DNA of 64,000 nucleotides from Asterochloris sp. CNOR1 (Eukaryota > Chlorophyta > Trebouxiophyceae > Trebouxiales > Trebouxiaceae): NCBI GenBank assembly GCA_963969365.1, contig OZ017753.1:2418001-2482000 (forward strand). Reading direction: 5' to 3'. The notes beneath the pieces are model-generated. The model had not been told where the DNA came from, ran no database searches, and worked only from the letters and a program-made list of their open reading frames with translations. Within the stretch, counting starts at the first letter, position 1. Every line of letters begins with the position of its first letter. This document shows, one piece after another, positions 1 through 64,000 of the stretch. Position numbers and translations under genes: made by a program.

Positions 1-155
1 TCAACACAAATGCGGACAGCATGCATTTATCTGAATTCTGCCCCTGCAGTCTGACTGCTGTGGTGCCATGGTGTGGTTGCCAAATGGCATGTGGAGAAAG
101 GGGCACAGTCAACTTTGTTGGACCAGAGATGACCTGACGTCTGGAGACAGCATAA

Positions 156-3100
156 CTAATCTACATCTGCTTCTGAGAGCTTACGCTTCTGCTTCTTCTT
201 TGGGGGCTTGCGACCAGAGCCTTTGCTCTCAGGCTGCGGTACTGCAGAGACGTTGTTGTTCTCGCCTGTATGGCAGATTGTAAGGCCTATTTCCTGTTGA
301 TACATATGGCAGCTAAGCCTTGATGGTTTAATACGGTCAAGGACAAACAGATGCTTGGCTTCTGGCTTTACTAGTGCAAGCTTGTGCTACTCACCTCCTC
401 CAGCAGAAGCTCTTGCTTTGGTGGCCTTGCCACCCCGCCTATGGGTGGGGCACAGCCACTTGCCTCGCGGCACATCATCCAGGCCAGCGCAGTGCACGTG
501 CATTGCTGTGGTGCAGCCTGCCTTGGCCTGCAAGCAGCAGTGACTTCTTCATGGGGGCCTCAAGCATGGCTCTGCCAAGACTGGTGTTGGCAAAGCCGAT
601 GAGACTGACAAGGCAGGCAAGCCAGGCTCACACATGCTAAGATAGGTGCAATCTGGTGCAGACTGCCCCTTTGCTGCATGCGTCAACCCTGGCCAAGGGA
701 ATAGCAAGTCCACCCTAAGTCCACCCTTTGCAAGAGGCTGCATGGTACTTGCAACCAGGCCTGGCGCCTACATCTCGGATCAATTGTCTTAAGCACAGCA
801 CAGCAGATCTCACCTTTCAAGGTCTTCTTACCCAAATTCTGGTCTTCTTTACCAAAACGGGTTTTACATTTCACCCCCCTCACAGCACAGCAGGTGTGCC
901 ACCGTTTCCATGCTTCCCCGACAACACAGCAGGCCTCACTGCCCCCGCCTCACAACAGGAAGATCCCATTTTTCTTTACACAGCACAGCAGGCCGCACTG
1001 TTGTCACGTCCCCACAGCACAGCAGGCCCCACACTGTCTCCACTCACCTCGCAGCACAGCAAATCCCCTGGCAGCCCGCACACAGCGCAGTCAGCGTCCC
1101 AGTCATCCTGGGGTGGGGGGGCATCGCTGCCCGCCCCATCTGTCTCCTCCGGGTCAGGAGTGCCCCCCCGCACGCCAGCGTTGCCCAGGCGGATCTTGAG
1201 CTTGGGGGCGGGCCCCTTCACCGCCTTTGCGCTAGCCCTGCAGGCGAGGAGGAACTTGGAGGAACAGTTACTTGGGGCTGCAAAGCTCTATGGCATTCCC
1301 AAGGCCACTGACGGCCCACTAAAGCAATGCTGATGCTGACAGGCTCTGGGCAGTGCATGCGGCTGTGCAATTGCATGAAGGCAAAGGAGGCACCCACCTT
1401 GAGCGCTTCTTGGAGCTGGCAGGCGGCTCAGCAGCCTCGACAGCCGCAACAGCTGCAGGAGCTGCCTCGATCTCCCGCTCCCGCTTGGCACCCGAAGCCT
1501 GCACCATCAACGCCGCCACATGAGCGCGGCAGGCTATGCTTTCCAGATTGCAGTGCTGCAGACAAGATAAACCCGCAATGGAACTAACGACATTGGAGCA
1601 CGGGATAGTCGAGCCTTTGCTTCAAGTCCAGCCTTGTTCCCTTGTGCAGGAAGGCTCCCACCTGCTTGGCCAGCTTAGCCTTGCCTCCCTTGGCAGCTGC
1701 CTTTAACGCGGGGGCGATGGGGTCGGCATTCTTCATCTGGCGGGCTCGCCGGTTGTTCAGGCGCCGCAGCAGGGGCAGGGCCCTGCAGACATGTGCAGCC
1801 AGTCACAAGGTGTGTCGGGGTCTGTCACACGGGTGCAGAGCCATACAGCGCAGTCTGTGAGGGCATGGGGATGCTCTGGCAGACGGCAGCTTGCATGGGA
1901 AGCTGTGCCTTGCCCCACAGCTTGGCACAGTTGGCCAGCACATTTGCTGCACTGCCCACCATTGATAAGACACGGCCTGCTGGAAGCAGGCCAGAAGGTC
2001 TGGCTGGCTGCTCCCAGCGTAACAGAGTGAACCCTGGATGTGCCTGATGCAATCCAACCTCCCCTCATGACAGGGCTTCAGCAGGGCTGCCCTGCTGCAG
2101 AGCACGTGCAGCTCAAAGCAGTTGCATGTTTGTCTGGGCAAGGCATGAGGTGGGCTGACCTGTCGCACAGCACAGCGGAGCAGTAGGTCACTGCGTTGAC
2201 GGTGCCGGTTGCATGCGCCTCTGCCCGCATCTGCAGCCAGACCTGGCGTTCTCGCCCTGTCCGCCAGAGCCCCAGACGACTCCTGTGGGGCTGCAGCGCA
2301 GGCGCAGGCCTTGTTTGGGTGTGATTCCACGTCGTGATTATGTGAGTGTGCTGCGCCCCTCAAGGATGCATGTTGCCGAGGTGGGAGAGGCCCGACCTGG
2401 CCGTGAGTGGCCTGGTCCCCCAGCTGCAACACAGTGCACAGGCTGCCAGCCTGTCCTAATTCTTTGTTCTGTTGACCATGTCAGTACCTTCTGCATGTGG
2501 TGCATGCACCCCTGCAGCTGTGCTTCCTCAGCTCACAGAGAAACCCCCGCGGCACAGCGCATTTTTTGTTTGATGCATTTCTATGGGCACTTGTCTCCTT
2601 TGCACACCTTGTCAGTGCCCTCTGCATCTGAGGCGTCCAGTTCCTCGCAGGGCTGAGGGTACAGCATCTGCCTGCCGGCCCCTGGCGCCCCCACAGCCTC
2701 CACCTGCTGAGCTCCCGAGCCACTGAGCTCTGCTGCTTGAGGCCTGACCTTGCTGCCTGCTGCCTGCGGCGCTTGCAAGGTACCAGGAGCCTCATGCTGC
2801 TGCTCCTGCTTCACAGGTGAAGCCTCCCACTTCACAGGAGATGCCCCAGGCAGCGCTTGCCTGCCTGAGTCTGCGGCAGCTGAGCTGGACTGGGGCTGCG
2901 CCAGCAGGGAGGGCTGCTGCTGGGCAGCCGCAGACTCGCGTGTGCCCTGCCCGGCAGTATGACCAGTTGCTGGCACTGCTGCCTCAGGCCTCATCGCCAC
3001 ACCAGGAGGGGATTCAAGCGACCCCTGCTCCTGCTGTGCAGCTCCGGCAAGCCGGTCATCATCCTCCATGCTCTGCCCAGCACCTCTGCCACTGGGCGCA

Positions 3101-6100
3101 GGGGAGGCTTCCATTTTGAAGGGCAGAAACTGCTGCAGCTTGGCTGCCGCTGCTGAGGTGGTGGGCGGCGCAGCAGGGGCAGCGCCATCGTCCATCCCAA
3201 ATGGCAGCGCCTGCTGCAGCTCAGCAGCTGCTGCCGCTGCAGTTGGCGGGGCGGGCTCTGCCCGCCCTGCCTCCTGCGGCTGGCCGCCACCTGAATAGGG
3301 CTCGTGGGGCTCAGGGCCAGGCTCGTCCACAACCAAGATCTTGGCTGCCATGTCAGCAGATGCAGGTGCAGAGCTGGCTGCTGCGATCTCAGAGGGGCCA
3401 GCAGCAGCAGCAGAGGGCCCTGCCAGGTCAACAGGAGCAGACGGCTGGGCCGTCTGCAGGCCAGCTGCTACTGCGCCAGAGGGCGCCACTGCAGCACCTG
3501 CGGGGGCAGCCAGCCCAGCAGAAGCGAGCTGCTGGGTTGCCGGTGGCATGAAGCTGCTGATGTGCATGGCGTCCGGCATGGCCTCATCTGGCAGGTCACC
3601 AGCACCGTCCACCTGCAGCACCCACACAATCAGTGAGCATGATATTGCCAGCGCAAGGCCGCCTGAAGGCATTCGCATCTATACCTGCACCGCTAACACA
3701 ACCATCCTTGAATTTTGTCCAGGCAGGATTTTTGCCGGACAAGCAGCGCAATGCAGGCTATGGGCAATGCCGTCCTTCTGCAGCACTACGGCACTCCGTG
3801 ACAAGAACAGCAGCAGTGTGTGGTGATGGCAGAAACCACCGCATTGTGGCAGGGCCAGGCCTTGCTCACGCCAGGTGCTGCTAGAGGGACACATGAGGCC
3901 CAAATGCCCAGTGCTCATTGTGGCAGCAGGCAAGCAACAAAGCATGACCCAAGCTCAGCCAATGCAGCCGACGTGTTGCAACCAGGGAATGATCTCAAAA
4001 CAGGGGTGCTAACTCCAGCAAATCCCTGCAAATGGAGCAGGGCGGAATGCAGCAACATGAGTGACGACGGCTAACAAATACCAGGAGCAGCATGTCATAT
4101 ACAGCTGCCGAGGAGTTCTGATGGGCAGACAATGTTGACAGCTGTTGGAGAACTGTGGCGAGCAACAAGATTCTGGTGCCCGCAGGACCACATTTGTGCG
4201 GTGGCGCACCTGCATGAGCACCGGCCCCGACTCCTGCTTGACAGCTGCTCCTTGGGGAGAGCATTGCCGCCGGGCAGGGGTGCTTGCCCCTGATGGGGCT
4301 GGCGCAGGCAGGGCAGGTAGCTCGGCGCCCGGCAGCGTGGCTGGTGTGGGCAGTACTGCAGGTGGTGGTGCAGGGCATGTGATCAAAGCTTGCAAGACAT
4401 GATGTTGTACATCTGGTGCCTCAGACTGCACCAGCCAGACAGGACGCTGGGAGTGGCCCTGCCCCTTGGTCGTCCACTGCTTGAATGGATATGAACTGCC
4501 CGCTACCCAAGGCTGACCTCTCCCTCCCCTAGTTCTAAGAAAGCAGCCAAATGCCTAGAAGGCAAGCAATACACTGCCTACAGCCATCAGGACCTAGCTG
4601 AAGGACAATGTGAGCTCTGCCAGCCCCCCAGCATCTCCTGTGTCTCCATAGCAAAGAGGCTCAACAAGTGGACAGTCGGCAGATGCATCGCACATGGACT
4701 GGATGCGTATACATGGCCAAGCCCATGGTCAAGATCCCTGCATCCTTATGACTTCTGAAGCCTGGGCTGTGCCACTCCAGAGGCTCCGTCAGCTCACTCC
4801 CAGCCAAAAGGCACCATTAGCTCATGCTTGGGCTGCCATTCCACCTCAATCAACCAACAGGACTTGGCCAAGAAGCATCCACTGAGCTCACGCTTGGGCT
4901 GCCCCTCCCCCAGGCCCCCCACCATCTCCTCCATCTCCTGCAGCTGCTCTGCAAACACGCCGGCATCGAAGACCTCCCGCATCTGGCGGAGCAGGGCCTC
5001 TGCTGCCTGCTGCTGGTGCACCAGGTGGGGCAGGAATTGCTCCAAAAGGGCTCCTGCCTCGTCAGCTGCCATCTGCACACGCCAGGGGTGAAGCCTCAGA
5101 CTGGCAGTGCGCCGGTTAGCAGGGCGTCCACCAGGCAAGGCAGGAGGTGCTCCAGCAGGACAGTTGCCTGTTGAGCTGCTGGTGACAAGGAGCAGGCGCA
5201 GTGGCTGATTGAGCCCCTGTAGAGGCTGGAGTTGCCTAGATTGACATCAAAGCACAAGCCGCCGGCCCCGATGGGCGTAGCACTGGTCCCCTGGACAAGC
5301 TCGGGAGGTCTGCTGGTTCAGGACGTTGAATCTCGGGGGCATGCTGCACCATCTGGACGCCTCGACAAAGGGTCTGTGGGCGGCATGGGCAGCTCAGAGG
5401 TGCAGACAAGGCTGACACGCTTGAAGCCGTGCCCTCACCCGGACTGCTTCCTGGTCCTGGGCATCTGCAGCCTCCTGCTGCTTCTGGGGAGCATGGTCCC
5501 CCTGCCCTCGACTCCTGCAGTGTGTGCTGTGTTCAGGGGGCAGCAGATGCAGTGCATGGCTTGGCAACAGCTTCTGCGCCCAGCGAAAGACCTGACCCTC
5601 TACAGAGCAAAGGGCTTTGAGTCTGGGGCATCCTCCATGCTTTGGGGACTGCCAGCCGACCAGGCAGCTTCTAGCAGCACCGCGCAGACAGCCTCCACGT
5701 GCAGGGCATGCTGCATGTACGCGGGCTGCCAGCTGCCCAGATGGCTCTTACTTGAACTGAATCTCTGGGGGATCTTGTGACAAGGTTGTGTGGCCAACAG
5801 GTTGAAGCAGGGCACCTGTAGAGGCAAGTGGAGCCCCAGCATGCCCACAAGACGCAGCCAGAGCCCCAGAACGCGGGGTGCCCATGCAGCTTGGGCTGCA
5901 AGCTGTGCAGCCCCTGACCGACCTCTCAACCTTTGACAGTGTGGCGTGAGTCTCCTCCACCAGACCAGCCTGACTTGGCCCACAAAGCTCACAACAGACA
6001 GCCATGCATGCTGCATGCCGGCAGGAGCTGCATGACTTGAGTCACCCAGGCCTCCACACGTGCCTGCAATGCCATTGCTATGCCCACTTGACTGACCTGT

Positions 6101-9100
6101 CAACCTCCGCCAAGTTGGCGTACGCCCCCTCCTCAAATGCGTCAGCAATGGCGCGGTACTTCCGGCGTAGCACGTTGAGCAGGACGCGCTCTCGGGCGCC
6201 CTTGCGGTTCAGGGCGGCCACCAGCGCATCCAGCTCGCCCTGGGTCTGGATGCACCCCATCTGACGCCCATCCTCTGACTCAATCAGGATGGTGGTGGGG
6301 TCACCTGCAACGAGCATGCCAGCAGGTAAGACATGGCTGACAGTGACTGAAAGGGCGGCCACTAAAGCAACCAGCTCGCCCTGGATCTGACCAAACCCTG
6401 TCCATAGGTTGACCTCTCCAACTCAATCAGGATGTGGTGGGGCCATTTAGAAGCCAGGCACTGCCCAAGGGGCGCACAGCTTGCATTGGCAACACTGCCT
6501 TCTGAGCAGGACAGCAGCAGCTGACTGAGTGATACACAAAATACCATCATGCTGGCGACGGCCTGGCCAAAGGGCAGACCTGCAGCAGCTGAAGTGCATG
6601 CTTGAGTCGCCCTTGTGTTGTGAGCAGCTCTGTTCCCTTGCCTTACTGGCAGGGAATCACAGCGCCCCTAAGCGCGCAGAGACCAAAGCCACACATCGCA
6701 TACTCACAGGCTGCTGATGGTTATGCAGCCAGCCAGCTGCACCTTTGTGGAATAATAAATGCAACTCTGGTGCCTGTCAAAGCCCAGCCCTGACGGATGG
6801 CTGCTGCGCAATGGGTAAAGTTGGCATCATCAGCATGCCTGGCGCAAGCTGGAAGAAACTGCCTGCACCTGGTGACCACCGGCAGCGCTGCCCATGCCTG
6901 TGTCGAGCAGCACACCCCGATAGGTGCCCGCTATGCAGGAGATAAGATGCCTGACGGCAGCTGTAAGAGGCGGGGTGCGCACCTGAGAACCACCAGTATC
7001 GCTGCTGGTGCCTGTCTGTGCCCAGCGGCGCAGTCCTGATGGTGGCAGCCGTCAGGCGCTGCTCCCAGTCCTGCTCCCGCGCTCGACGAGCCTCCTCCTC
7101 ATTCTCGGCCTGGCCCTGCTGGCTGCCTGCAGTCAGCCACAGACTGCTGCAGGTGGCCAGCTGCAGTCTTTGACATGGAGGCAGCTGGCAGTGGGGCAAG
7201 CTCAAAAGGCAGCTTATCTGGCCCTGCATGTGTCTGCCGGGGTGTCAACAAGGGCGCCCCTGATTGGGGTCAGCCTGGGCCTGCTGACTGCCTGCAGTGA
7301 GCCACAGTGGGCTGATGTGAGGCGTCCCAGGCCCACCACCCCCTCCACCCCCCCAACTAAACCAGTTAGGTGCCGCCTACATGCTGGTGCAACATGTGAC
7401 ATACAGCTGCAGGGCAGCTCAACTGCACATCTGGATGCTCTGGTCATCCAGAAGCGGCTGCTGGCTTGTAGTTGGTGACATCCTGACCAGCTGCATGGCT
7501 GCCAGGCAAGGCAGCTGCTGGCAAAGGTCGGCACAGCATTGCAGATGCTGAGGCACATCAAAATCGCAAGAGTGCTTGACGTGCTTGCTACAGCACCTGT
7601 GACTAAGAGACAAACACCCTCCAGAACGGCAAGAACCAAGCACTGACCCTGCATGGCATGGTCAAACCCTCAGTGGCCTGAGAAAGGCACATCAGGGTCC
7701 CCACCTGGTCCGAAGCCGTCCTGGGCTGCCCTGGCCCCTGGGGTGGCCGAGGATCTGCGCTGCTGGTATCCCTCCCCTCCCTCCTCATCCTCTCCATCCT
7801 CATCCTGGTCACCTGCAGGTGGCAGCGGTGGCTTGAGCTTGCTGCATTGCTTGACAGCAGCACTGCCAGAGTCATCACATGGGCAGCTGAATGACAAGGG
7901 CAATTGACCAAACTGGGCAGTCTCGTGCCCAGTGGCTCAGAGCATGTGGTGCTGTGCTGCATGGCAGACCTCACAAAGTTGAAACAAGAATCGCAGGGCT
8001 GCGGCCATGCTCAAGAAGTGCCCCAGTTGCTCCTGTAGCTGGCTCTGCAGCTGGTGGCTGCCACAGCCTGAAATGGACACACCACAGAACGTGCTGCGCA
8101 CAGACAGACCCGTGCCATTAATTTTGTCTCTGCTGTCCTCTTCCAAACAAAGCTCGTCTCCTCAGCATGTTTGCAGCCTCACGCACTCAGCATGCACCCC
8201 TGTTGTTGTCGCCACTACCACCTGCATGGTGGTCTTAAATCAGCCATACCTGGCTACAATACCCAACAGCCACAACGTTCTCTGTGAAGCCGCCCAGCCT
8301 TGAGCAGTGAGGCAAAGAGACAGATATGGAGAGCACCCACCCTCGTTCTTGTCGTCGCCGTCCTCATCGTCATTTGCATCCCCCTCCTCCTCCCCGGGTG
8401 GGGTCTGCCCCTCCCCAGGAGTGGCTGTGCCCTCCACCTTGGCGGGGCCATCCTTCTTGGCCGCTGCCTCTGCCTTTCTGCGCTCCTTGGCTTCTGCCTC
8501 CCGCTGCTTGCGTTGCCGCGTCTCCTGCAGGTACGTAACCCATTTTCAGTCAGCGCACCAAGGATCTGCTTTTCCTCACATGGCCTCAGGCTTGGCGAGC
8601 ACCCTGTGCCAGCGGATCAGCCACAGCCCCCTGCATGAGAAACAAGCTTTCTGTCATGTTCTGAATGACTTCTGTTGCTTGGCCTCCGCTTTGTGCTTCT
8701 TGCACTGCCACGTCTCCTGCAGGCAGGCCATTGCATGTGTGCATGTCGGCCTGATGACTGCCTCGCGCTTCAGCCCCTTCTGCAGGCAGCGTGGTGATGT
8801 AAAGCTGGAGGACCAGCACAGGGCATCCTGACTGCCATCTGCCCTGGACATGGGCCGTTGTGAATGCTCCCACCTCCTGGTGGGATGCCCAGAGGCACTG
8901 CCAACACAGTACATGCCAGCGCAAAGACGCCTGCTGCGCAGCAGATGCATGTTGCAAAGGCATCTGCTGAAGACAGAGAGGACCATGTGGCCCACCTCCA
9001 GGAAGCGGTGGTGCCTCTCAGAGTGGATTGCATTGATCTGGTCCACGCGCTGGCTGATGGTTTTCTTGACGGAGGGGCCATCCATGCAGTCGTTGCACAC

Positions 9101-12100
9101 AGCTGCCAGCAGGCGCAGGTGGAAGGCGGGAGTCAGCCTGCAGGGGGGCCCAGGCAGATGTCAGTCACCAGTCTTAGGAGCTCAGCCAAAAGGTAGGATT
9201 CCTTGGTGGAAGGCAGGAGTCAGCCTGCAGGGGAAGGCAGGCAGTTAATAGGATGGGAACACTTGAAATCACACAGAGGCATCCAGTATCGCCAGAATTG
9301 CAGGCAGCTGCCGGCGTGCATCAGGTTCTCTCGGTCAGCACTGGGAATGCTGCTGCAGGCTTGGCCTGGACAGCCCCATGCAGCCAGCTTGTGTACACAG
9401 CCTGCAACACATGTGCTTTGCACCCTCTGCCAGCGCAGGGCTAAGTGGGCACAGACAGGTGCATGTCAGCCAGCAAGGTGTGCGGCCACGTGCGTGTGCC
9501 AAGCACTTTCTGCCATGACAAGGCAGCTGGTAGAAGCAAAGACAGAATAGGGCAGGCCCAATGACGTAGCCGTACACATGTTTGCACACTGCAGTTGCGA
9601 AACCGCTGGGGATCGTGTGTTCTTGGGCTCACTGCTTCCCACAGGCAGCTGAGTGCACAAGCATCCGCATCCTGCAACGAGCAGCTGGTGCAGAGTGCAT
9701 GCTCAGGTGCACTAGATGTCCCCTGCCAGCACTGTCATCAGTTGTGGACAGGCAACATGATATAGCGCACCCTTTGGCAGATCAAGGCAGCTACCCTTTG
9801 AACTTTGCACTCACGTGTACCAGGCGTCCTCTGCCAGCACAAGGGCAGCCCGCACAGCCACCTCATGGTCCCTCAGGTAGGGTACCTCAGCATCCGAGCG
9901 CGTGAGCACCTCATCAGCGATGGGATGGGCGGCGCGGGAGGCCAGGAGGTAGCGCCGCAGCACCTCAGGCCACGTGGAGGCTGTCGTGACCCGCGCCCAC
10001 TTGCGGGCCTTGGCTGTGCTGATGCCGTGCTGCTGCTCGGCAGCCTGCAGGGCAGGGCCACAGGTTGACACCAGACAGGTTGCTGCTGCATCTGCACAAA
10101 GTCCTGCATGCACCAAATCAGGAGCTCCACTGTGCAGGGAGAGCTGACACAGCAGCACAGCAGGATGAGCAGCTGTACATGGAGCTGCGAAACATACTAT
10201 ATCACGGCTACCACAGCGTGAGCGCCAAGGCTAAGGGCTCACGTGGTCATGCAGCAGGATGCCGAGCAGCGTGCTGTACAGCTGGGCCAGGATGGTGGAG
10301 TCCAGGGGCCACAACGCTGCATGCTGCAGGGTGGCCAGGTCTAAGGGGTCCTCTGGCCACAGGTGCCGGAAGGTGGTGAAAAACTCCAGGACAGCCAGAG
10401 CATCCTTGAGGACTGTCTGGGCTGCTGTCCCAGGCAGCACTGGCTGCAGGCAGAAGAGGTGGCTTGATGCAACAAGGGCATGTTGCACGACTGCCTGGGC
10501 CACAGCAGCTGCAGCGACCCGGCCTTTGCTCGCAGCAGGTATACAATCAGCTCCTTGGCTGCAAGAGCCGGCACAGATTGGGCCAGCCAGGCCGTGCACC
10601 ACATACTCTGCGCATAGGCTGAATGCCAAGACTGCAACAATGTGGCAGCGGTATTGTGAGCTGCCATCAAGCAGCACCTAGCAAATGGCACACACTATGA
10701 TCAGGGGAGCTGAAGAGCTAAGGAAGACACAGAATGCACAGGCATGCAGCGGGCAGGGCAGCAGCCTTCACGTGCACTGCAGCAAGCATCTTGGACACAC
10801 AACTGGTCCTCGAAGAAGGTGCTCACTCAGGTCTGGGCCCTGGACAAGTGCCTGACCGTGTTGGTGTGCATGCACGAATATCATGGCCACCCAGAACATA
10901 GCTCACCTCGCTTTGGGCCATCCCCTAGAGGGCGACCTGGCCTCAGCAGCTAGCTGTATGGGAAGCTTTGCTTTGTGAACACAAAGCTTGCTCACCTCTG
11001 GCCTGAGCGGTCCCTGGACAATGGCCTTCAGGCGTCGCACCTCCTCCTCAGCCTTGTCAGCGGCCTCGCGTTTGGTGTCGGCGGCTGCTCTGGCTGGCCC
11101 CTGCAGCAGCCAGCACAGCGGCTTTCAGCTTTGCATCCACAAGCATGCTCAGCAGCTGTCAGACACCATTAGCTGTGTGGTACTGGAGGAGTCGGAGCTC
11201 ACTCCTGCTTTGCCTGTGCCAGGTAAACAATGGCAATACCTCATTTGCTCGCTGCAGCTGTCTCAAAAACACTCATCGTGTGGGCTTCCCCCAGCAGCGC
11301 TCCTTGAGTGGAGGTGTCTAGTGCTCCGCATGACAAGCCTGAGCACAGTTTGCCAATGCGTGACTACCCAGCAGGGCCTCACCGCCAGCTCCTGCGCCTG
11401 CTCCAGGCGCGCCTGCTCCTCACGGGGGGGACCCTCCTCCTTGACTCTCCGCTCAGTCTGGACTACCTGGCTTGCATGCGGAGCCGGGCTACGAGGGGGG
11501 CCGTCCTGGGCTGCACCATCTGTGTCCATGGGAGCTGGCCCATCCTGATCTGCAAAAGCATCCTTTGGGATTAACTCTAGCAGCACACAAGGGCAGAGAT
11601 ACTGCTGCCGCCAGCCAGGCTCATGTGCAGGCAGTCGAAGCAGCCCACCAGGGCGATAGAGAGTGTCAGTCTGGCAGCGTGATGTAGCTGTCGAACGACA
11701 ACATGCCCTTCTACACTGCTCCCTGTTATCATCTGATGCAAGCCAAGCTTAGGTGGAGGGGATGCAACTCAGTACAGCTTCTGTGATCATGAACTCAAGC
11801 GCACTTGGGTGGGCTCAGCTGGAGCGCGATACGGTCCCATCTTTGCTCTAAGGCATTGTTGTGCAGCCCAAGAGCCTCCTGGCCCGCCAGCACATGAAAG
11901 CTCTGGCCAAACGCTAAGCATGCTGCAAATGCTTCCCCCTGCAGCATGGCCTTCCCCTGAGCCAAATTCAGGCCACCACCTGCCACACCTGCACGTTAAA
12001 CCCTGCCTCACCTGCCCCATTGGCTTGTCCGTCTGCCTGACCATTTGCTGTAGCTGGTGAAGCCTCCCGCAGCCCCTCTGTGGCAGGCTGGCTGTCACCT

Positions 12101-21979: not shown

Positions 21980-22158
21980 CTGAAAATGGATGGGACTTGG
22001 GTTGGCCCCGCAATATTTGTATTTGTTTGAGGGAAAGAAGGAGCAATCTCAACTCAGCTTTCAACATAGTCACTGCTCAACAGCTGCTGCCATCTGAACC
22101 GGCACAGCAGCTTTGTAGAGGTGCCCACAGTTGAAGGGCCTCCAGGTGCTGCCTGAGG
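21980..22158. other. Spacer between the chromatin gene and gene 22159-24381
   Basis: About 180 nt separate the in-phase first exon of the chromatin gene from the stop of its same-strand upstream neighbour. It must hold the 3' end of one gene and probably the promoter or leader of the other. An ATG at 22073 (minus) opens a short frame that does not match the WAC frame. No clear promoter or poly(A) motif is visible. Confidence 0.5.
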
Positions 22159-43200: not shown

Positions 43201-44005
43201 AAGGTGGCTGATGCCAATGTAAGTGACCTGCAGCTGCAGGGCAGGCTGGAGGAGGCCTTCTGGGACCATGTCACAGGCGCGTGCGTGACCTGCGAGGCAC
43301 TGCACGGCACAGGTAGGGCCGCCTCCAGCCTCGTCACAGCCTCTTGTATGCCCCCTGGCCATGCATGGTACAGGCGGGGCCTTTCCATGCACCCCCCTCG
43401 CCCTCCTGTAGCATATATGAGGCGCTACACTTGAGGCTGCATTTAAGCACCGGCCAGCCTTGTGCATTTGCCTGTGAGACATTCTACAAAAAGGTCAAGC
43501 TGCGTCAGGCACATTCACAAATGCAGCCTCATACAATGCAAGTGAGGTGCTGCACAGCTCAGATGATCTGCATTAGGCGCCTGCCAGCCCTGTGCAACAC
43601 CTGTGAGGCGCTCCACGAAACAGGTGGGATGGTGCCAAACACTGGTGCGGCCTCATGTCGCGCCTGAGGTGCACCTTCCATGGTACACCTTAGAAGCATC
43701 TCTGGTGCTGCATGGCACAGACAAGCTGCATCAAGCCTTGTCACAGCCTCATGCAGCATGTGTGAGATGCTGCATGGCACAACAGGCATACAACTTGGGG
43801 TGTCAGGGCACTCTGTGCGCTGCGTGTCACAGCGAGGCTGCGTCAGGTGAAGGTGTTAGAGTCATGCGCAGAAGCAGGGCTACCAGGTCACCTGCCAACA
43901 CTCCAAAAGCGCTAAGTTGCTCAGCTCAAGCTGCTGCCACCTTGTAATGTACATGCAGGTCCTGCCAAATATGTACGGCTGAGGAGGACGGCAATTGCAG
44001 GCTGA
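40226..44005 (+). CDS. Unrecognised Cys/His-rich, putatively zinc-binding protein with organelle-type presequence
   Basis: I do not recognise the family. Exons 40226-40500, 40820-40966, 41661-41776, 42322-42476, 43177-43312 and 43959-44005 close in phase to 291 aa. Residues 1-~60 are basic and Ala/Ser/Gln-rich with few acids (MRVCRLQLAIRAAAVQ), suggesting a mitochondrial or plastid presequence. The mature part contains LLHAETGQVWLVPRKCWKPL, a linker ending ILKDFWDGYTEAT, then C212-x2-C215, H227-x2-C230, C267-x2-C270 and H274, set in KCPTCDIMYDMNERWVHGAC and ACVTCEALH. These could bind one or two zinc ions. The C-terminus is short and basic (YVRLRRTAIAG). The large introns (545-855 nt) are largely echo arrays. 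The exon 1 start could also be the ATG at 40238. Confidence 0.72.
41400..41625 (+). repeat. Two echoes of exon 41661-41776 start
   Basis: Copies at 41405-41450 and 41574-41621 match parent 41660-41708. CACACCGCC and GCGCTGTG appear in the nearer copy, GGCGGCATAGCC and CGCTGTGTG in the farther. Divergence rises with distance from the parent. Confidence 0.8.
41860..42300 (+). repeat. Three or more echoes of exon 42322-42476 acceptor
   Basis: The parent (42300-42370) has ACCATCACATGCTGCCCTGC before the exon and reads VTTIEKDGHVRFVPL. The copy at 42075-42150 has ACCATTACATGCTGCTCTGC and reads VITTEQDGHQLWVGA. Copies at 42024-42065 (VQTFHLDGHLCYV) and 41860-41912 (GCTGCTCTGCAGTCTCACAA) are weaker. 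At least 20 nt of intron upstream of the acceptor is copied too. Confidence 0.88.
42477..42870 (+). repeat. Three echoes of exon 42322-42476 3' edge
   Basis: The exon ends KCPTCDIMYDMNERWVHGAC. Copies in the following intron read PCHICKAMGPHERALGAWAC (~42520-42590), LCPICKAIKALEQALGAWA (~42630-42700) and a frameshifted version near 42735-42815 that keeps GAGGAAGCGCTGGGTGCATG. Spacing is about 110 nt. The CxxC pair is still visible in the first two. Confidence 0.85.
43330..43800 (+). repeat. Array of echoes of exon 43177-43312 3' edge
   Basis: The exon ends ACVTCEALHGTG. Degenerate copies read IYEALHLRL (~43411), ACETFYKKV (~43468), CNTCEALHETGG (~43595) and a TGTGAGATGCTGCATGGCAC block (~43761). 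The best copy (43589-43670) also keeps the intronic GCCTC-TGT-CGC flank. The intron is mostly this array. Confidence 0.8.
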
Positions 44006-51500: not shown

Positions 51501-54500
51501 CAGGAGAGGCGTTGGGCCTGAGCCTATACCCATTGTGAGTTGATCCCTGCATAGGCTTCACGACCAGGGCAAAGCATCGCCGGTATCAACTGTGCAGCCA
51601 TGCCACGCCTCCAGGTCGCAGGTTGAGCCGCTGTGGCAGCCATTGGGTTGCAGTCTGTAGCATGCACCTGCTGGTAGACTCAAGCTGTTGTCACTTGCGA
51701 ACAGCCTGGCACACCTCAACTTGGCGAAGCCGCCAAGCCCACTTCTGCAGGACGAGCTGACCACGGAGAAGTTGACTGAGGCCTTCGACTTTCTGAAGGA
51801 CCCCAGCGCAAAGAAAGCTGCCCAGGAAATTGCAGGCAAGATCGCAACAGAGGACGGCGTGGCTGCAGGCGTAGAGGTGGGCAGCTGCCTGTGATTCCAG
51901 CTGCACATGGGCAGATGTCGGTGAACATGACAGCTGCAACCCTCTGCTCATAAATTGCCCTGGATATTTGTTGTAAGCAGCATCAGATCTTTTTCCCTGC
52001 CTCAGCTGAGGCTGAAGAGTGAACCTGTGATGCGGCATGTGATCTCGGCATCACATGGGACATGACTCATGAGAAGTTGCACATGACAGCTGCAACCTTC
52101 TCATGGACTACTTGGGGACTTTTTTGCGGGCATCTGCAGCTCTCTCTGCCTCAAAAGGCTGAGTATAGGTTTGACTCCTCTTCGCTTATGCACAGCTGCT
52201 GTATCTGCAGGCTGTTGCCTCTGATTTGAAGGTGCAGCTTGGACTGGCTATAGCAGAAGTGGGTTGCAGCACAGCTCGTGACTTTCGTGGGCTGCTCAGC
52301 TCGTCCCCGAGTCATCTTGAGCAATGGAGCAGCTTGCTGGCGCCAGCTTGCTGTATAGAGGCGCTCAAGACAGGCACCAACAGTTCAGACACATGCAGGC
52401 ATCAATCAGCTGGCTGTCCCTGCTGCAGGCTTTCCACAAGCACCTTCCATTGGAGCGCATGGCCACAAAGAAGCCCCTCAAATGGCACCTGGTGCGCGTG
52501 ATTTGTGCATGCCAGCCTGCCTTTTAGCCAGGTCGTCTGCTGATGTGTCAAGTACCTTGGGTGCCTGCCCTGCACCTGCAGCAAGCCCTGAAAGGCATAT
52601 TGCCTGTGATCTTTTGGTTCTGTGCACTGGAGCGTGTTGCAGGATGGTTCCATGCCCAGTGATTGGAGGCGTCTGCAAAGTGATGACCCTGCTGCACTCT
52701 GCTTTGTGATACACGCGTCAGTATATTTTGTATCTGCCGTATGCTGCAGTCTTGTTGCACACGGCAACAAAATGGCTTCTTGCACCAAACCTGAGTCCTA
52801 CGCTGCTGTGCAGGCCAAGCCTCACTTCTCCAACTTCTTGCACGAAATCACCTTTGGGGTGGTGGGCATCTTTTCAGAGCCCATTCAAGGGGCAAAAAGG
52901 AATGGTGAGCATCTGCTGTGCAGTCAGCCTGCGCTGTCAAAGTTGCACAGCTCGTCAGCAGTACGCGGGCAATGGCTTGGGGGTTGCTGCTCATCAGTCC
53001 CTGCTGAGTTGCAGCAGTGCAAGCAGCGATAACAGAGCAGCTCACATTGCGTGGTGGTACCTGCCCTCCATGCAGTCTCTGCAATCGGCAGAATGACGGC
53101 AACATGATGAGCCTCGTGTCGTGAACAGCATCAAAACTTGATCCCCTGCACTTTTGCTAAAATAAAGCAGCTACTAGCCAAACTGCAGCGTATCATTGCT
53201 GCCTGATTGCAACACACATGGCCCAGCCACATCAAGTCCCCTTGGCTGTAGCCTGCTGCAGATCTGGTGGGTGCAAGCTAGTCCATAGCACAATGTAGAC
53301 TCTCTGTTACGACTGCTCAGCCTGATGCGACACCAGTGGGGTTTGCAAGCTGCAAGGGTGGCCATGTACGCCATTCTAGCACACCCAAGCTGCTCGCCTG
53401 GTGCAGGTTGCTGGGATCTGGCAGCCGCAGACTGGCACAGCACAGCACATGGCCCGTAAGCTGACAAGCTGCTGCATGCGCTGTACTGAGGGCTAGTAGC
53501 GTGGAGTGGTCAATGACTCGCAAGCTACCTTGTTTGCTGCAGCGGGCGGGAGCAGTGCTGTGGCTGCAAAGCCAAGCTCGCACACCACATGCAGTCCCTG
53601 TGCAATCTCTTTCCCAGCAAGCTGCCCGCTCTGCGGCAGGCGTTGTGCATGCTGTGGTGGCTGCCAGGCTTGCAGTCTGGCAGCAAGCCTGCCACATCAG
53701 TCATGCATCAGCTTCACACAGAGGCTGCTTGACTGCTGCAGGCGGGGTGGGGCCTGTGCTGGGGATGGACAATGGGGACACCACTTCTCTGACAGACTGG
53801 TCCACCTGCTGCTGGCTGTCTGGGCGGTGCCCATTGCTGAGCTGCAACTCTGGATCATGTGATGCAGGTGTGGTTGGAGCTGTGCTCGGGGTGGGGAAGG
53901 GTCTGAGCGGCGTGGTGATCCGCCCGCTGAAGGGGCTGGCGCTGTCTGGGATGGACATTGGGAGCCATGCAGTTGATGCAGCAGTGCTACTGCAAACCAA
54001 GCGCAAGGAGACGTTCTTGATCACCAAGGAGATTGTTGAAGGGTGAGTCTCTATGTGTCGCCTTAGAAAATCTCCTGCAATCAGACCTTGGGCCTTGCAT
54101 GCTCCTCTGCCACAGACTGAGGAGGGGCATCAGGCAGCCTTACTGCTTGTCAGCAGTGACCTGGGCTACAGCATCTCCCTGCACAGTGGCAGGCTGCGCA
54201 GCAAGCCGCCTCACAACGGGCTTGCATTCCTGCTGCTGCAGATTGCACAAGACGATACCTGGCACTTCCCGGTGTCTGCAGGATACATGTGATGTCCTGG
54301 CAGGATCGCTCTGCCCAAGGTCTGAAATACCCCCCTGCCATTGCATGCTGCACATATGAGAATCCCTGGCCGCAAGGCACCCCTCAAAGGATGTGAGAGA
54401 CTGCGTGGCCCCTCCTGCTGCTGCAGGCTGCAAAGGAAGGCACTGGGCGGCAGGCCTCCGAACTCAGTTGGCGTACATCTTCTACAGGCTGCAGACAAAT

Positions 54501-56055
54501 GTACAAAGGAGCCAACAAGGGTCCCTGATGGTGAAGCTCTGCTTAAGCCTGCACGGAATGCTTTCCAGAACATGATCCCATCAAGCTGCAGGCCATAGGA
54601 GAAGGTGCCTGGCAGCAAGGCTGTACGCAAGGCAAACAGCAAGGTCCTTTTCAGGTTGTCTCGCTGCTGCAGGCTGTGTGGAGAGGGCCCTGCTGCCCTG
54701 CCAGGGAAGGTGCCTTCACCAAACAGTGTTGCAGGAAGCTCATCCGTGCACACAGGTTGTATGCGCACCTGTGACTGCAGGCCTTGCAAGGTCCCCAGCA
54801 GCAATGCCATGCTACTTAGAGTGTGACAAGGACACTCTTTCCTGGTAGGTAGTGATGTCTTGGTGTTGGAGTCCAGCCCTGCCATCTTGGGCTGCACAGC
54901 AGCGTCCAGGTGCTGGGCGATGTGGAGCATCAGGCATGGGCCCCACTGAAGCGCGCCCCCCTACTCTGCTGCAGGCTGCGCAGGAAGGTGCCTCGTGGCC
55001 ACGCCCTGCCCAGGTTCAAAACTGAGAAGCAACTGATCCTTGAGGCCAGCAATCTCAGCGTGTCAGGCTCAAGCCAAAGCAGGACGGCAGTGCTGGCAGA
55101 GCAGGCAGCTGGGCAGGAGCTGGCTGGGCTGGCCCAATCGCGGCATGAGGAGAAGCATGCCCCCAAGCATGAGGATGAGGGGGAGGAGGCCCCTGAGGAG
55201 GATGGGAAGCCGGGGTGCGCTTTGAACGTTGTGTCTGTTCTGTTACGAGGACGTTGCACTGCAATGTGTGGGTGAGGGGCAATCTGCGCTTGCAGATGAG
55301 CAGGCAGATGAAGATGCAGCCATGCTGGCCCTGCAAGTTGACTGCAGATGCTCAGACTCACAGGCATTTGCAGGAGGCAGACTCTGTGAGAAGCTTGGGT
55401 CCTCAAGTACGCTGCTTGGCCCTGCAGAGGGCAGCATGCGTTGAGGCTGCCAGTAGTCTGCAGGGAATTGCAGATTTGCAGGAGTTGAGCTGCTTGAGGT
55501 AGAGCAGCAGCACACTTGCATGTGCTTAAGTTCAGCATGCGCAGTGTGGCCCTGCAAGGGGAGCTGTGATGCTGCAGTGCTTTGCAAATGGTGTGAGGTC
55601 AAGGCCGGCATGCTTAAGTCCAAGCTCATGCAGCTCATGCCACTGCCCTGCCTTGAGGGGCCTGAAGGTTGCAAAGGATGCCTCCCGCGGTAACGCCTGC
55701 AAGTCAGTAGACACTGGCAGGCGCACAGGCTGGAAGCTCATACACTGAAGTGCCCATCTGCAGGCACATGCGTCGCATGCTCAACTTCAAGCTGACACAT
55801 TTCACGACGCTGCCCCGGCTGCACCGGACCTCCAAGGTACGTGAGTCAGAGGACGATGCCTCTGAGGCTGGAACTGAGAGCTTGGAGAAGCTGAGCCCGG
55901 AAAAGGACAGCCAGAAGGGCAGCTCCAAATGGTTACCTGAGGTCCTGAGGCGCTCTCCCCGGCCCAGCAGCAGTGGCCGCAACAGCAAAACTCAGCCTGA
56001 AGAGGTGGCTCCCGACACGGCACAAGACAGTGGATTGAAACAATGTTTAGTATGA
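45509..56055 (+). CDS. UGT80: Sterol 3-beta-glucosyltransferase (UGT80/UGT51-type, GT1 fold) with C-terminal extension
   Basis: Transfers glucose from UDP-glucose to the 3-OH of sterols at membranes. Exons: 45509-45809, 46205-46296, 46936-47184, 47621-47719, 47831-47873, 48115-48224, 48901-49002, 49279-49390, 49490-49554, 49661-49687, 49809-49880, 50324-50517, 50837-50970, 51280-51331, 51481-51535, 51751-51876, 52429-52491, 52814-52904, 53868-54042, 54975-55214, 55764-56055. All phases close to 897 aa (894 from the ATG at 45518). Signatures: [70 protein letters not shown], and the UDP-sugar site [33 protein letters not shown] follows. The last ~265 residues lie beyond the usual catalytic unit: a glycine-rich [20 protein letters not shown] segment, then acidic and Ser-rich tails. 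There is a 27-nt micro-exon (49661-49687). Confidence 0.94.
51925..52110 (+). repeat. Dispersed duplicate in sterol glucosyltransferase intron 16
   Basis: ACATGACAGCTGCAACC occurs at about 51926 and 52081, each followed by a similar CTCAT-containing stretch. It suggests a 155-nt duplication that has since diverged. Confidence 0.65.
53730..53778 (+). repeat. Echo of sterol glucosyltransferase exon 19 acceptor
   Basis: TGCAGGCGGGGTGGGGCCTG at 53738 mirrors TGCAGGTGTGGTTGGAGCTG at the real acceptor (53863), and both continue GTGCTSGGGRTGG. It lies 125 nt upstream. Confidence 0.8.
54105..54710 (+). repeat. Array of echoes of exon 20 acceptor (intron 19)
   Basis: The exon starts LRRKVPRG after CTGCTGCAG (54966). 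Similar blocks appear at ~54110 (ACTGAGGAGGGGCATCAGGC), ~54190 (GGCTGCGCAGCAAGCCG), ~54416 (CTGCTGCAGGCTGCAAAGGA), ~54487 (ACAGGCTGCAGACAAATG) and ~54665 (CTGCTGCAGGCTGTGTGGAG). Two keep a complete CTGCTGCAGG acceptor. The intron is 932 nt. Confidence 0.78.
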
Positions 56056-57062
56056 CAGTCAGTGAAGTCACATAGCAGCAAGGCTGCATTCTACCGCTCA
56101 TAGAATGCATGCAGTGCCGTTTACTCGCCTGTACCCAACTTACTGACACGGGTGAGTCCTCAATCATTTGTGTTTCCAGCGCTGATCCCCAGAGTCATGA
56201 TAACCTGCATCCCCCACATTTCCTGTGTGCATCATCTACCTGTCCATGCACGCCTGTACCCAAGGTACACAGCCTTTTAAAATCATAGTTTTCAGGTATT
56301 TTGCAAGCCTGCTGCTACATTTCAGAAATATCCAAATAGATTGCGCTGTCTCCCTTGGATGAAAAGGCACCTCTTTGCTGCCATCCTGAGTCTGGGTATG
56401 ACGTCAGTGAGATGGTTAATGTGCATGCCCAGGGACAATAGCAAAGAAAGACATGTTGACGCCCAGCATCCTGTATGCCTCCTGCAGCAGTCCTGTGCAT
56501 CAACCACCAGCACTGAGCAATAGCTCCCCTTTGCTATCAGACTTGAAGCCTGCAGGACGCTTAGAGTGCTGCAGTCATCCCCAACGCAAAACTGGTTGCC
56601 CTCACTTCAGGCTGCAGCCACTGCCTCTGCTGGCACTGCAGCCACTGCCTCTGCTGGCACTGCAGCCACAGCCAGCTCAGGTGAGCTTCTGCCACAACCG
56701 TTGCATGCTGCAGATGGTTGTTTGCTGAGCAGAAAGGTCTCACAACAAGCCCACTCCAACCCTGTCAAAGCCGCCTATGTCCTGCAGGCTGCCATGCCTG
56801 CAGAACCTCTCTGCACCGTCCCCTCTCAGTCAGTCTTTGGAACAAGCAACCTGCATCAGCAGCTCAAAAGCATTGCCAAACTCCCCTGCACTGCCACCTA
56901 GCATATGTGCATACTAAAACCAGTCTCATAGCATATCGTGAGCCACAAGACAACTTGGACAAGCGTGTTGACGTTTGACAACTGCCTGGTGAGAACAAGA
57001 TGATGAAATGTGGTTCAATCAAAAGCTTGATATCCAAATGTGTTGTACACAGGGACTTGTCT
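56056..57062. other. Convergent intergenic region with 24-nt tandem repeat
   Basis: About 1 kb between two facing stop codons. It contains two and a partial copies of GCAGCCACTGCCTCTGCTGG (24-nt unit, 56614-56668). No exon with splice support was found, and it should contain both 3' UTRs. Confidence 0.6.
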
Positions 57063-58415: not shown

Positions 58416-58446
<31 letters not shown>

Positions 58447-61400: not shown

Positions 61401-63637
61401 CCGGGTGTTGATCAAAGCTGGTCTGCGTGGCACTCACTGCTTCGCTCTCCTCACTGCGCTTGCCGCTGTATGCGATCATGGTGTAGGTGGTGATGCACAC
61501 CCCAGAGACGCCTGCAAATTGCTCCTTGCTGTCTGAAGTGAACCTGCAGGCGGGCAGCACAGCCTGTGGGGGGCTGCAGTCCCTCAGCACGCTTCAGCAT
61601 GACGCTTGCTGACTTTAGCAGCTCTGTTAAAACAGCCTGTGAGGCAGCACCCTTGTCCTCGCTGTCTGAAATGGACCTGCACGCAGGCTGTGAGGCGGCA
61701 GAGCCAGGCTGCACAGCAGTGCATAGATCCTGCCTGCTGCTATCTGATGTGAGCCTGCAGGCAGGCAGCATCCTGTGGGATGCTACTATTTCCATGTTTG
61801 ACCTCCGGCTTTGGGCGAGGTAAACCACAAGCAGAGTGTGTAAGGTTATAGACTCCTCCTCACTATCGGAGGCATACCTGCAGGCAGATAATTCCTGTAA
61901 CGCCGCAGAGCCAGGCTGTACAGCAATGAGGAGAGGTTCTGCTTGCTGCCGTCTGACGTCATCCTGGAGATGGGCCTAGGCCAGCCTGATGAGTGGAGTA
62001 GCTCTGTGCTGCTACAACTGTCTACTGCCACGCAACCAGAAGGAATATGCCACTCACTTGATAACCTGTGCAATCAACACATGCATACTGCAGGCTCCTG
62101 ACAGGGGCACTTCTGTGCAGTGGGCTGCCGATTATCTCCGAGCTCCTTGAAGAAGCGCAAAGACAACAAAACCCTGTTTAGAGGAGCAGACTCACTTGGA
62201 GATCTGGTGGTCCTGAAGGTTGGTCCATAACTTAAACTGGTACTTCCACTGGTCCACGCTCACACTGTTGGTTACCAGGCACAGCACGCTCTTCTTGATG
62301 CGGGCAGCTGCGCTGATGCCCACCAGGGATTTGCCTGCCCCACAGGGCAGCACGATGATGCCTGCAGCAGGGCAGTACCGCATCTAGGACTGTGCAAGCA
62401 ATGCAATGCATGTCTGACAGCGCCAGACTATTGCCAGCCCCGCAGGGCGGCACGGCCATGCCTGCAACAGGGCAGTGCTGAGTTCAGCACTGTAGCCAGA
62501 AACATGTCTGTCAGCATCCAGGGCCTGCCCAGCCACAGGACAGCTTCATGATGCCTGGGCAAGGCAAGTGCTACCTATGGTGGCGAAGCAAGCAGTGCCT
62601 GATCTGCAGTTGTGCAGTGTTCCATGGCAGAGACTTGAGCCAGTACAGCTCAGTGATGTGCCTCTTCAAGCCGGACTCGCCAGAACATGACTGACTTTTG
62701 CAAAAGAACAGCCAATGCTGATGGCAGCCCAAGGGCATTGCAGACACTGAGCAGACACTGAGCGCTGTTTGAGCTCTACTCACCAGATCGTGCTCGCCCA
62801 TTGCCAAACATCTTGCTAAGGCTCTTGGTCTGGTAGGGGCGGTGTGTGACGGTGGGCTTCAGATCTATGGCCAAGTTGGGGTTGACCGTGTCATTCCTGC
62901 AGGCAAATGCAATGGCGTCTGTCCCTGGGTTGCAGCTTGGTAAGCTGCAGCCAGACTGCTTGGAAGGAGCGGCACATCACAGGCTTAGTGGAGCAAGGTA
63001 TCCAGAGCACTATCTCAGCAAGCCTGCATGCCCTGTACCTCGAGCAGCACTGCACACAGCTGCAACAGCCAGGTACAGAATGCTGCTGGCAGGGACACAA
63101 GACAGCAGGGCGGGGCCGGCCGCAACTCCCTGGGACACATTCCTCTGATTGCCCTGCGCTTACCAGTCCTGAACCACCTATTGATCACCACTTCTGACTT
63201 GGTAGTGTCATATTCCTCCAGCTTGGCACAACAATTGCTGCAGCCTCTACTTCATTCCAAGTTGATGGCCGCCTCAAGATCATGCTGATTGCTGTAGGCA
63301 AGCAGGGCAAGCCCCTGCGTGCCTGTCATCTCCAGCACAGAACATGAACAAATTCACCAGGCACAATCTGCTGCCAGCTTGTCCAGCGCCTGCATCTCTC
63401 TTGATAGAGGCACAAACCCAGCAGCAGCTGGTAACACGAGTGCGGACCTGAAGTCATACTCTTCCAGCATGGGGTAGTTGAGGCCGCCAGGGAGGCAGCG
63501 CTGCTTGACGTGCTCCACCTGGGACGCATCAATCTCAAAGCTATGCAGCTGGCGCTCTTCCTCTGTGGCAGCCACGATGGCGCGGGCAGCCTCCATGCCC
63601 GGGTCGGGGCGCACTCCGCCGGCTGCTGTTGCCCTGC
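57063..63637 (-). CDS. XPB: XPB/ERCC3/RAD25 3'-5' DNA helicase of TFIIH, 5' end outside the window
   Basis: ATP-dependent translocase of TFIIH, needed for RNA polymerase II promoter opening and nucleotide excision repair. Exons, 5' to 3': 63448-63637, 62784-62896, 62196-62361, 61438-61543, 61012-61095, 60394-60582, 59849-59962, 59127-59273, 58594-58744, 57918-58067, 57621-57676, 57063-57320. All join in phase. They cover from just before [20 protein letters not shown] to the C-terminus; the N-terminal exons lie past 64000. Motifs: Walker [12 protein letters not shown], Walker [12 protein letters not shown] (the XPB DEVH), the XPB-specific RED loop [20 protein letters not shown], motif V region [20 protein letters not shown], motif [17 protein letters not shown], and [20 protein letters not shown]. 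The basic C-terminal tail ends YKYRSR. It converges on the sterol glucosyltransferase. Confidence 0.95.
58421..58446. repeat. 26-nt poly(C) tract in an XPB intron
   Basis: An uninterrupted run of 26 C on the plus strand (poly-G in the transcript) in the intron 58068-58593... more exactly just downstream of exon 58594-58744 in gene direction. It is a hypervariable mononucleotide tract and could form a G-quadruplex-like structure in the RNA (inference). Its length may be affected by assembly error. Confidence 0.9.
60655..60714 (-). repeat. Echo of XPB exon 60394-60582 5' part and acceptor
   Basis: About 50 nt match parent 60534-60585; on the plus strand TTGCAGTGGGCCTT is identical and CAGGGTG and GACCT flank it in both. 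The copy lies 125 nt upstream in the intron. Confidence 0.8.
61560..61995 (-). repeat. Array of echoes of XPB exon 61438-61543 acceptor
   Basis: The exon starts [11 protein letters not shown] after CTGCAG. In the intron upstream, copies read [12 protein letters not shown] (~61650-61690), [12 protein letters not shown] (~61728-61765), a shorter YASDSEEES block (~61850-61882), and [12 protein letters not shown] (~61930-61970). Each is beside a TGCAGG or CCAGG. Spacing is 80-110 nt. Confidence 0.85.
62418..62480 (-). repeat. Echo of the XPB Walker A exon acceptor
   Basis: About 60 nt match parent 62321-62380. The copy reads [13 protein letters not shown] where the exon reads [13 protein letters not shown], so the Walker lysine is Asn. 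The match continues past the acceptor into the intron (GCAACAGGGCAGTGC against GCAGCAGGGCAGTAC). Confidence 0.88.
63197..63233 (-). repeat. Echo of XPB exon 63448-63637 3' edge
   Basis: The minus copy reads KLEEYDTT where the exon ends MLEEYDFR. The plus strands share TCATA-TC-TCCAGC. It lies about 250 nt into the intron and is shorter than most other echoes. Confidence 0.6.
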
Positions 63638-64000
63638 CTGCAGGGCATGGTGGCTGCCTGTCAGGCTCAGCTGTGACTGATGTTACTGGTAAGAGTTTGT
63701 GTGCACGCTGCCTGCCGCAGCCCCGCCTGTAGGTGGGCTTGTTGGGCCTGTCAGGCTAGGGCACAGGCAACAGCGCTGGGAGCCCTCATGCCAGGGTTCG
63801 GCCACACGCCGTCTGCCCCTGCTGCCGTGAGAGCCTAGGTGCACGTCATGTGCATGAAGAGCAGCAGGAGCCTGGGTCTGGGTGCAACCTGCCAGCTATT
63901 TTTGGAAGTGTCCACAACCCGACTGCAGGCACTTCTCAGGCTGAAGAGCAGATGTGGGGGCCCGGCTGCACAGGCTACAGGAGGGTGCGTGCAGCAGCAG
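63638..64000. other. Right-edge intronic sequence of XPB
   Basis: No frame here matches the missing N-terminal part of XPB, so it reads as intron. A block near 63700-63735 resembles the acceptor side of the first in-window exon and may be another weak echo. Confidence 0.5.

Follow-up and report, generated by a model that had tools for sequence, protein, structure and literature searches.

Among the closest described systems in which a local duplication has reshaped an intron is the potato RdRp gene, where a duplicated segment lies over a splice boundary and part of what used to be exon has turned into intron (PMC4974935). A single duplication, later than the divergence from wild relatives, gave rise to a new intron there, whose donor came from the exonic piece. 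New intron positions in Drosophila have been traced to tandem duplication or sliding, again with an exonic duplication of which one copy was intronised, and these positions come from proto-splice sites within exons (PMC2891723). More generally, most short insertions in flies and primates, about 80-90% of those studied, stem from tandem duplication, simple or complex (PMC2374710). Relatives of Chlamydomonas, which belong to another algal class, are green algae with long introns (medians of 198-343 nt); the advantage of such introns has been called unknown and the mechanism driving them likely ancient, and exon-edge copies are not mentioned in the part of that paper available to us (PMC8226300). 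Here we describe the introns of a 64,000-nucleotide stretch of the trebouxiophyte green alga Asterochloris sp. CNOR1 (contig OZ017753.1; C8:2418001-2482000; hereafter the window), together with further samples of the same genome. These introns carry decayed direct copies of the edges of their adjoining exons, which we call echoes.

The algal introns share with potato RdRp a duplicated segment over a splice boundary, with a once exonic piece now intron; they differ in showing many old duplications that appear to lengthen existing introns, with no clear signature of intron birth. In contrast to the Drosophila cases, the algal junctions appear to be pre-existing, and compared with the fly and primate insertions, the algal copies lie mostly 60-300 nt from their partner (the lag), are old, and are visible through that exonic partner. 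The type of mutation is thus known, and what is new is its abundance, measured here in one genome, and a state of preservation that makes intron growth measurable. A literature search, with most subscription papers outside its coverage, recognised no paper in which decayed copies of exon edges are described as characteristic of a whole genome.

The genome comprises 56,383,464 bases in 21 contigs, of which C1-C18 measure 2.0-4.5 Mb each and C19, C20, and C21 measure 43,319, 110,056, and 215,390 bases. In addition to the window, we sampled 18 stretches of 10 kb, one per large contig (244 kb with the window), and held out six more stretches (60 kb) that took no part in training the gene finder, which gives a grand total of 304 kb. 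Genes were predicted with a small two-strand hidden Markov model (HMM), seeded with 24 exons recognised in translations and retrained on the window and the 18 stretches; it learned the splice signals CAG/GTGAGY (donor) and CTGCAG/G (acceptor) and predicted ten genes in the window.

Decayed direct copies of exon edges in introns are real and occur genome-wide. At a score of at least 28, an echo was found in the adjoining intron for 72 of 774 predicted exon edges, and for none of the 774 when unrelated edges were used. Among 82 strictly selected introns at a score of at least 26, echoes accompanied 24 of the 164 edges, compared with about 0.4 for shuffled introns, about 0.9 for unrelated edges, and 2 for reverse-complemented edges; among 239 introns the count was 38 of 478 edges, against 2 for unrelated and 2 for reverse-complemented edges. 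Shuffled introns and unrelated exons were the comparisons on which an earlier note, made from the letters of the window, had staked its description of these copies, and neither reproduced the signal. Blocks from exon interiors, 100-150 nt from the junction, never matched the adjoining intron (0/245). In the window, 24 edges had an echo at a score of at least 28, and 26 repeat pairs coupled an exon or exon-edge copy with a noncoding copy (17 edge-crossing, nine with one copy fully exonic), in agreement with the more than 20 intronic copies counted in the note. Its statement that seven of eight genes carry them was nearly matched at the loose score of at least 26, at which seven of the ten predicted genes do so and a few chance matches are expected; the count fell to five of ten at a score of at least 28 with exon bases only.

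The copies are also direct, on genes of both strands, as had been claimed. Self-comparison with blastn (lag of at most 400, score of at least 36) gave 36 direct and no inverted pairs in the window, 65 direct and 2 inverted pairs in the 18 other stretches, so that the pattern extends well beyond the window, and 23 direct and no inverted pairs in the held-out 60 kb; at least one pair with a score of at least 40 and a lag below 500 was present in 15 of the 18 stretches. An ungapped scan of the 304 kb found 148 pairs at lags of 12-600 and one at control lags of 2000-2588. The short distance from echo to parent described earlier was likewise recovered, with lags mostly of 60-300 nt for exon-noncoding pairs in the 304 kb (57/68). 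Because blastn drops alignments near the main diagonal, the self-scan is blind to lags below about 50, and for repeats generally the apparent minimum of 60 nt reflects this artefact in part: the ungapped scan found 39 pairs at lags of 12-60, of which 26 were noncoding, two exon-noncoding, and 11 exon-exon or other.

Repeat pairs are concentrated where exon meets intron. Among the 108 pairs of the 244 kb, 40 crossed an exon edge and had a noncoding partner, compared with 16.4 ± 3.7 after random relocation, 27 had one copy entirely exonic (expected 21.4 ± 4.0), and eight were of exon-exon types. The 26 held-out pairs comprised nine edge-crossing (expected 2.8 ± 1.6), six with one copy exonic (4.6 ± 1.8), ten noncoding (15.8 ± 2.3), and one exon-exon pair. 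In all, 43 alignments, a few of them exon-exon pairs, span a predicted junction (18 donor, 25 acceptor). Direct orientation, closeness, and similarity running through the exon-intron boundary are thus found together, as in a junction-spanning tandem duplication.

We consider it highly probable that the echoes arose by tandem duplication across splice junctions, after which one copy stayed as the exon edge and the other turned intronic and decayed. This explanation, already proposed in the earlier note with selection keeping a single exonic copy, is the best supported of those considered, given the excess of edge-crossing pairs, the specificity of the match to the own exon, and the codon asymmetry and XPB homologues described below. 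Small tandem duplications would arise in and near genes, and where the duplicated unit straddled a junction, splicing would continue at the outer of the two sites, the one more distant from the intron's centre, i.e., that of the second copy at an acceptor and that of the first copy at a donor. The protein would remain unchanged, and the other copy, including its exon fragment, would become intron and lengthen it. Under purifying selection the exon copy would then change slowly while the echo evolved neutrally, and old pairs would remain detectable at exon edges after equally old intron-only duplicates had faded. From sequence we infer that such duplications took place and in what order the steps followed, that the spliceosome does not use the echo site, and that the activity is mostly past.

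The identity of the parent copy can be read most directly in the gene for the XPB/ERCC3 helicase, which is backed by homology. Exon and echo differ at ten codons across four pairs; in ten algal homologues, picked by hand from the match list, the exon residue was present in 100 of 100 comparisons and the echo residue in none, and judged by these homologues polarity in XPB runs from exon to echo. Across 77 exon-echo pairs, divergence (K) was 0.181 (0.159-0.202) at codon positions 1 and 2 and 0.304 (0.267-0.341) at position 3, a ratio of 1.68 (bootstrap 1.42-1.99), and the echo contained a stop or frameshift in 24 of the 77. The higher divergence at position 3 points to a constrained exon paired with a neutral echo. 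If both copies were neutral, the expected ratio would be 1, and an echo under constraint, for which little change is predicted at positions 1 and 2, is disfavoured by the 0.181 found there. It is also unlikely that the copies were divergent from birth, because the excess at position 3 implies that the exon copy had time for mostly silent changes. Within the same junction the exon side was the more similar in 54 of 73 pairs and the less similar in 18, and similarity on the intron side dropped almost to that of shuffled sequence over about 20-40 nt at acceptors and about 10 nt at donors. Exon-to-echo substitutions were broad in kind (247 transitions, 218 transversions, all twelve types), and on this spectrum repeat-induced C-to-T mutation was rejected as the cause of divergence. 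Mean echo-echo distance (0.236) lay above the parent-echo distances (0.148 and 0.189), exceeding both in only 19 of 34 triples; as the columns had been selected by their match to the parent, we place no weight on this result.

An intronic pair diverges on both sides and an exon-containing pair on little more than one, so that edge pairs outlast others. In a simulation of random 60-150-nt duplications, the ratio of detected edge pairs to noncoding pairs was 0.95 at a neutral K of 0.05, 1.27 at 0.19, and 2.15 at 0.25; the ratio observed in the 304 kb was 82:43 (1.9). Identities come from trimmed local alignments, and measured K is therefore an underestimate, which allows the simulation to account for the observed ratio without a junction-specific mechanism. 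In this model, the concentration at edges is due largely to the slowly changing reference copy, perhaps with a moderate junction bias. Junction-specific copying, for example RNA-templated or linked to splicing, would account directly for the 40 edge-crossing pairs where random placement gives 16.4, and it gains from the fact that the ratio of 82:43 fits the simulation only if true divergence exceeds measured divergence. However, the 43 junction alignments contain the intron side, which rules out spliced mRNA as the template, there are many intron-only pairs and repeats of short period, and most of the excess can be put down to an exon copy that changes slowly; we regard such copying as quite unlikely. 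Complete duplication of exons, as in mutually exclusive exons, was rejected, since the exon part of an echo is typically about 50 nt (at most 113 nt), interior blocks gave 0/245, and 24 of 77 echoes are broken. Those same broken frames, the fragment length, and a divergence of 0.18 at positions 1 and 2 tell against functional pieces of alternative or mutually exclusive exons, or decoy splice sites with a regulatory role that selection maintains. Here the splice dinucleotides of the echoes are intact at 10 of 18 donors and 21 of 25 acceptors, seven donor and 15 acceptor echo sites lie within the strength range of predicted real sites, and the gene finder called two XPB echoes exons, but sites of decoy strength are about as frequent in antisense. 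We therefore hold a function of this kind to be quite improbable.

A supply of decoy splice sites, suggested earlier as a consequence of the echoes, found little backing: intronic sites of functional strength numbered 940 (sense) and 1038 (antisense) for donors and 860 and 875 for acceptors. Across 136,069 intronic bases of the 304 kb this amounts, on each of the two strands, to roughly one site resembling a donor and one resembling an acceptor in every 150 nt, a density at which short splice motifs alone can hardly define exons here. Preferential loss of echo splice sites was not seen in the 18 donors and 25 acceptors, and neither removal nor retention of decoys is visible. The birth of introns by tandem duplication of an AGGT-bearing exon segment (the Rogers model), with the echo as the other half of the duplication, involves the same type of mutation, and single cases of it are known (PMC4974935). 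Comparison of donor and acceptor windows of the same intron, with motifs masked, gave 25 of 239 against 19.2 expected at a score of at least 22, 9 against 8.3 at 24, and 3 against 4.1 at 26, and no pair had a lag equal to the length of the intron. Without a clear donor-acceptor excess, intron birth is rejected as the main origin and is very unlikely to explain the echoes, although a few individual introns could still qualify. Dispersed elements, whether introners or small transposons, that landed in introns close to exons have precedents in the introners reported from 5% of species (PMC9860276) and in the recent intron invasion reported in the alga Micromonas (PMC3879977). The echoes match their own exon and none of the 774 unrelated edges, and four of four array blocks had no second place in the genome by a search that skips very common words and scores only the best candidates; for the examined blocks this origin is rejected, and for the echoes at large we give it hardly any credence. 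The comparison with ordinary minisatellites gave a mixed picture. None of the six arrays reported by Tandem Repeats Finder in the window coincides with an echo, no array in the 244 kb has a period above 60, and most echoes fall outside such arrays, although three arrays outside the window do overlap exon-edge pairs (L006:3583-3771, L018:47-153, and L004:4924-4982, with 73-89% matches).

Several observations weigh against tandem duplication across junctions as the account of these echoes. The process extends beyond junctions, with 33 of the 108 pairs noncoding in both copies (expected 58.4 ± 4.7). Copy length reached at least 75% of the lag, as expected of a plain tandem copy, in 10 of 101 pairs, seven of them exon-noncoding, and the other 91 spanned less, through decay or subsequent growth. 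As the lag climbed from 40-90 to 260-460, the exon part stayed close to 40-70 nt (medians 41.5 to 67.5); with this nearly constant exon reach, extra growth between the copies or the loss of middle copies must be added at long lags. Columns noncoding in both copies diverged by 0.235 (0.176-0.279), below the predicted doubling of about 0.36, and the fit is still not clean when it is considered that trimming of the local alignments lowers this value. The age spectrum also misfits a steady rate, under which the class at 90% identity or more should be about as full as that at 80-90%: among the 76 exon-echo pairs of at least 25 bp, these classes held one and 38 pairs. In addition, the edge-by-edge comparison with homologues covers XPB only, and the remaining exon edges in all stretches are HMM predictions.

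The echoes are old, since identity stays below 90% in all 58 exon-echo pairs that span 40 bp or more. Young pairs are more frequent among the noncoding ones (5/40), and of the 24 ungapped pairs with at least 90% identity over at least 25 bp, 14 lie at lags under 60. Long duplications may have become rare, or copies may begin close and be separated by later growth; the near-constant exon reach fits copies that started close and were then pushed apart. The rise of divergence with distance described in the earlier note was not recovered (Spearman 0.02, P 0.85, n=101). Its proposal that such duplications explain intron growth stood in direction, with a median length of 518.5 nt for echo-bearing introns (n=34) vs 276 nt for those without (n=205); long introns also give more room for echoes, and the lag intervals of detected pairs (lag of at most 400) take up just 6.8% of intronic bases, which is a lower bound. 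Exon edges might, as we tentatively suggest, be a fossil record of intron growth: with an exon copy slow to change, each edge would preserve traces of old duplications that can be dated and that have faded elsewhere in the intron. The record would stem from an earlier wave of duplications across junctions, by now all but over, and much of the remaining intron sequence may be similar debris that is no longer recognisable. Should exon-edge copies prove common elsewhere, they would allow the growth of introns by tandem duplication to be measured directly and dated, the slowly changing exon copy serving as internal control, and the fossil-record reading could extend to any genome with long introns. 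It also touches the question of why certain green algae retain long introns (PMC8226300).

The XPB gene, on the minus strand, holds echo arrays at two acceptor edges. The acceptor edge at 62361 of exon 62196-62361 is the parent of two echoes of the segment 62331-62421, at 62431-62515 (lag 100, 75% identity, an alignment of 91 columns) and at 62523-62566 (lag 190, 78%). The acceptor edge at 61543 of the exon encoding FTSDSKEQF (61438-61543) is the parent of a longer array: 61523-61555 is echoed at 61656-61688 (lag 133) and 61527-61570 at 61738-61779 (lag 211, 84%), and the echo block 61688-61760 recurs at 61895-61969 (lag 207, 76%). Alignment thus resolves a parent and three copies here, the third by way of the second, and more are visible by eye only; the earlier note had described arrays of up to five in the window at large. 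Two XPB echo stretches (61614-61676 and 61803-61877), the first of which overlaps the echo at 61656-61688, were predicted as exons, and the residues they add do not align to human XPB. Both were demoted manually before pairs were classified, and short or weak predicted exons were counted as intron; echoes can mislead gene prediction, and other predictors run on this genome may gain similar false exons. A run of 26 C lies at 58421-58446, inside a predicted XPB intron. Among the matches listed, XPB of the window is nearest to trebouxiophyte algae (Trebouxia sp. C0006, 76% identity; Coccomyxa, 75-78%). An entry labelled Artemisia annua ranks second among these matches, amid green algae (70% identity over 93%), and may represent algal contamination in the plant assembly.

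Arrays also occur on the plus strand. The donor edge of exon 42322-42476 with the start of its intron (42442-42578) is followed by a full-length tandem copy at 42551-42689 (lag 109, 140 columns, 78%) and by a third copy of this 109-nt array at 42748-42808 (lag 338 relative to the exon part). In the GH63 gene, the donor edge of exon 29164-29347 with the start of its intron (29315-29428) is echoed at 29397-29508 (lag 82, 72%, 115 columns), and 29347-29440, nearly all intron side, has an additional copy at 29583-29676 (lag 236, 79%). Single echoes on this strand are those of the acceptor edge 27970-28017 of GH63 exon 27973-28190, at 27771-27818 (lag 199, 85%), of the donor edge 43300-43346 of exon 43177-43312, at 43708-43753 (lag 408, 79%), and, weakly placed, of the acceptor edge 54958-54988 of UGT exon 54975-55214, at 54409-54440 (lag 549).

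The remaining echoes lie on the minus strand. Acceptor edges are echoed at 38459-38511 (parent 38365-38417, exon 38291-38410; lag 94, 85%), 9205-9244 (parent 9118-9157, exon 8996-9137; lag 87, 88%), 8678-8723 (parent 8486-8531, exon 8341-8524; lag 192, 78%), 7270-7307 (parent 7105-7142, exon 6983-7126; lag 165, 89%), and 14211-14239 (parent 14036-14064, exon 13864-14057; lag 175, 90%), and the acceptor side of exon 6097-6304 (6211-6303) at 6352-6445 (lag 141, 73%). Two exons are echoed on both sides: exon 12655-12765 at 12509-12553 (donor-side parent 12657-12699; lag 148, 80%) and at 12855-12889 (acceptor edge 12740-12774; lag 115, 80%), and exon 18557-18726 at 18410-18450 (donor edge 18526-18567; lag 116, 83%) and at 18816-18877 (acceptor edge 18699-18761; lag 117, 75%). 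Donor edges have echoes at 4803-4845 (parent 4867-4911, exon 4892-5072; lag 64, 80%) and 19151-19213 (parent 19255-19319, exon 19261-19468; lag 104-106, 78%), and further donor-side segments have theirs at 15049-15089 (parent 15156-15196, exon 15155-15349; lag 107, 88%), 20211-20275 (parent 20415-20479, exon 20417-20618; lag 204, 74%), and 39200-39237 (parent 39346-39383, exon 39342-39600; lag 146, 82%).

Of the seven other proteins or protein parts of the window that were searched, four matched Pfam families (a GH63 glucosidase, a glycosyltransferase-28 protein, a WAC/PHD chromatin protein, and a DPBB protein), and three matched no Pfam family. Younger local duplications in noncoding sequence, with ungapped cores of 93-100% identity and lags of 24-226, were present at L016:4454-4846 (85% over 147 bp with gaps permitted), L016:7030-7155, L018:5132-5195, and 56612-56673 of the window. 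A predicted exon at L007:8630-9241 contains internal direct repeats, partly CAGCAGGC-rich, which form exon-exon pairs. On contig C21, the open frame at L027:466-2142 is plastid cemA, 558 residues long; among the 120 matches listed, the best one that names an organism is from Trebouxia lynnae. About 26% of its residues align to that protein, and from this small aligned share it probably carries a long insertion; a cluster at 100% identity to this cemA is present in an ENA source (P0121).

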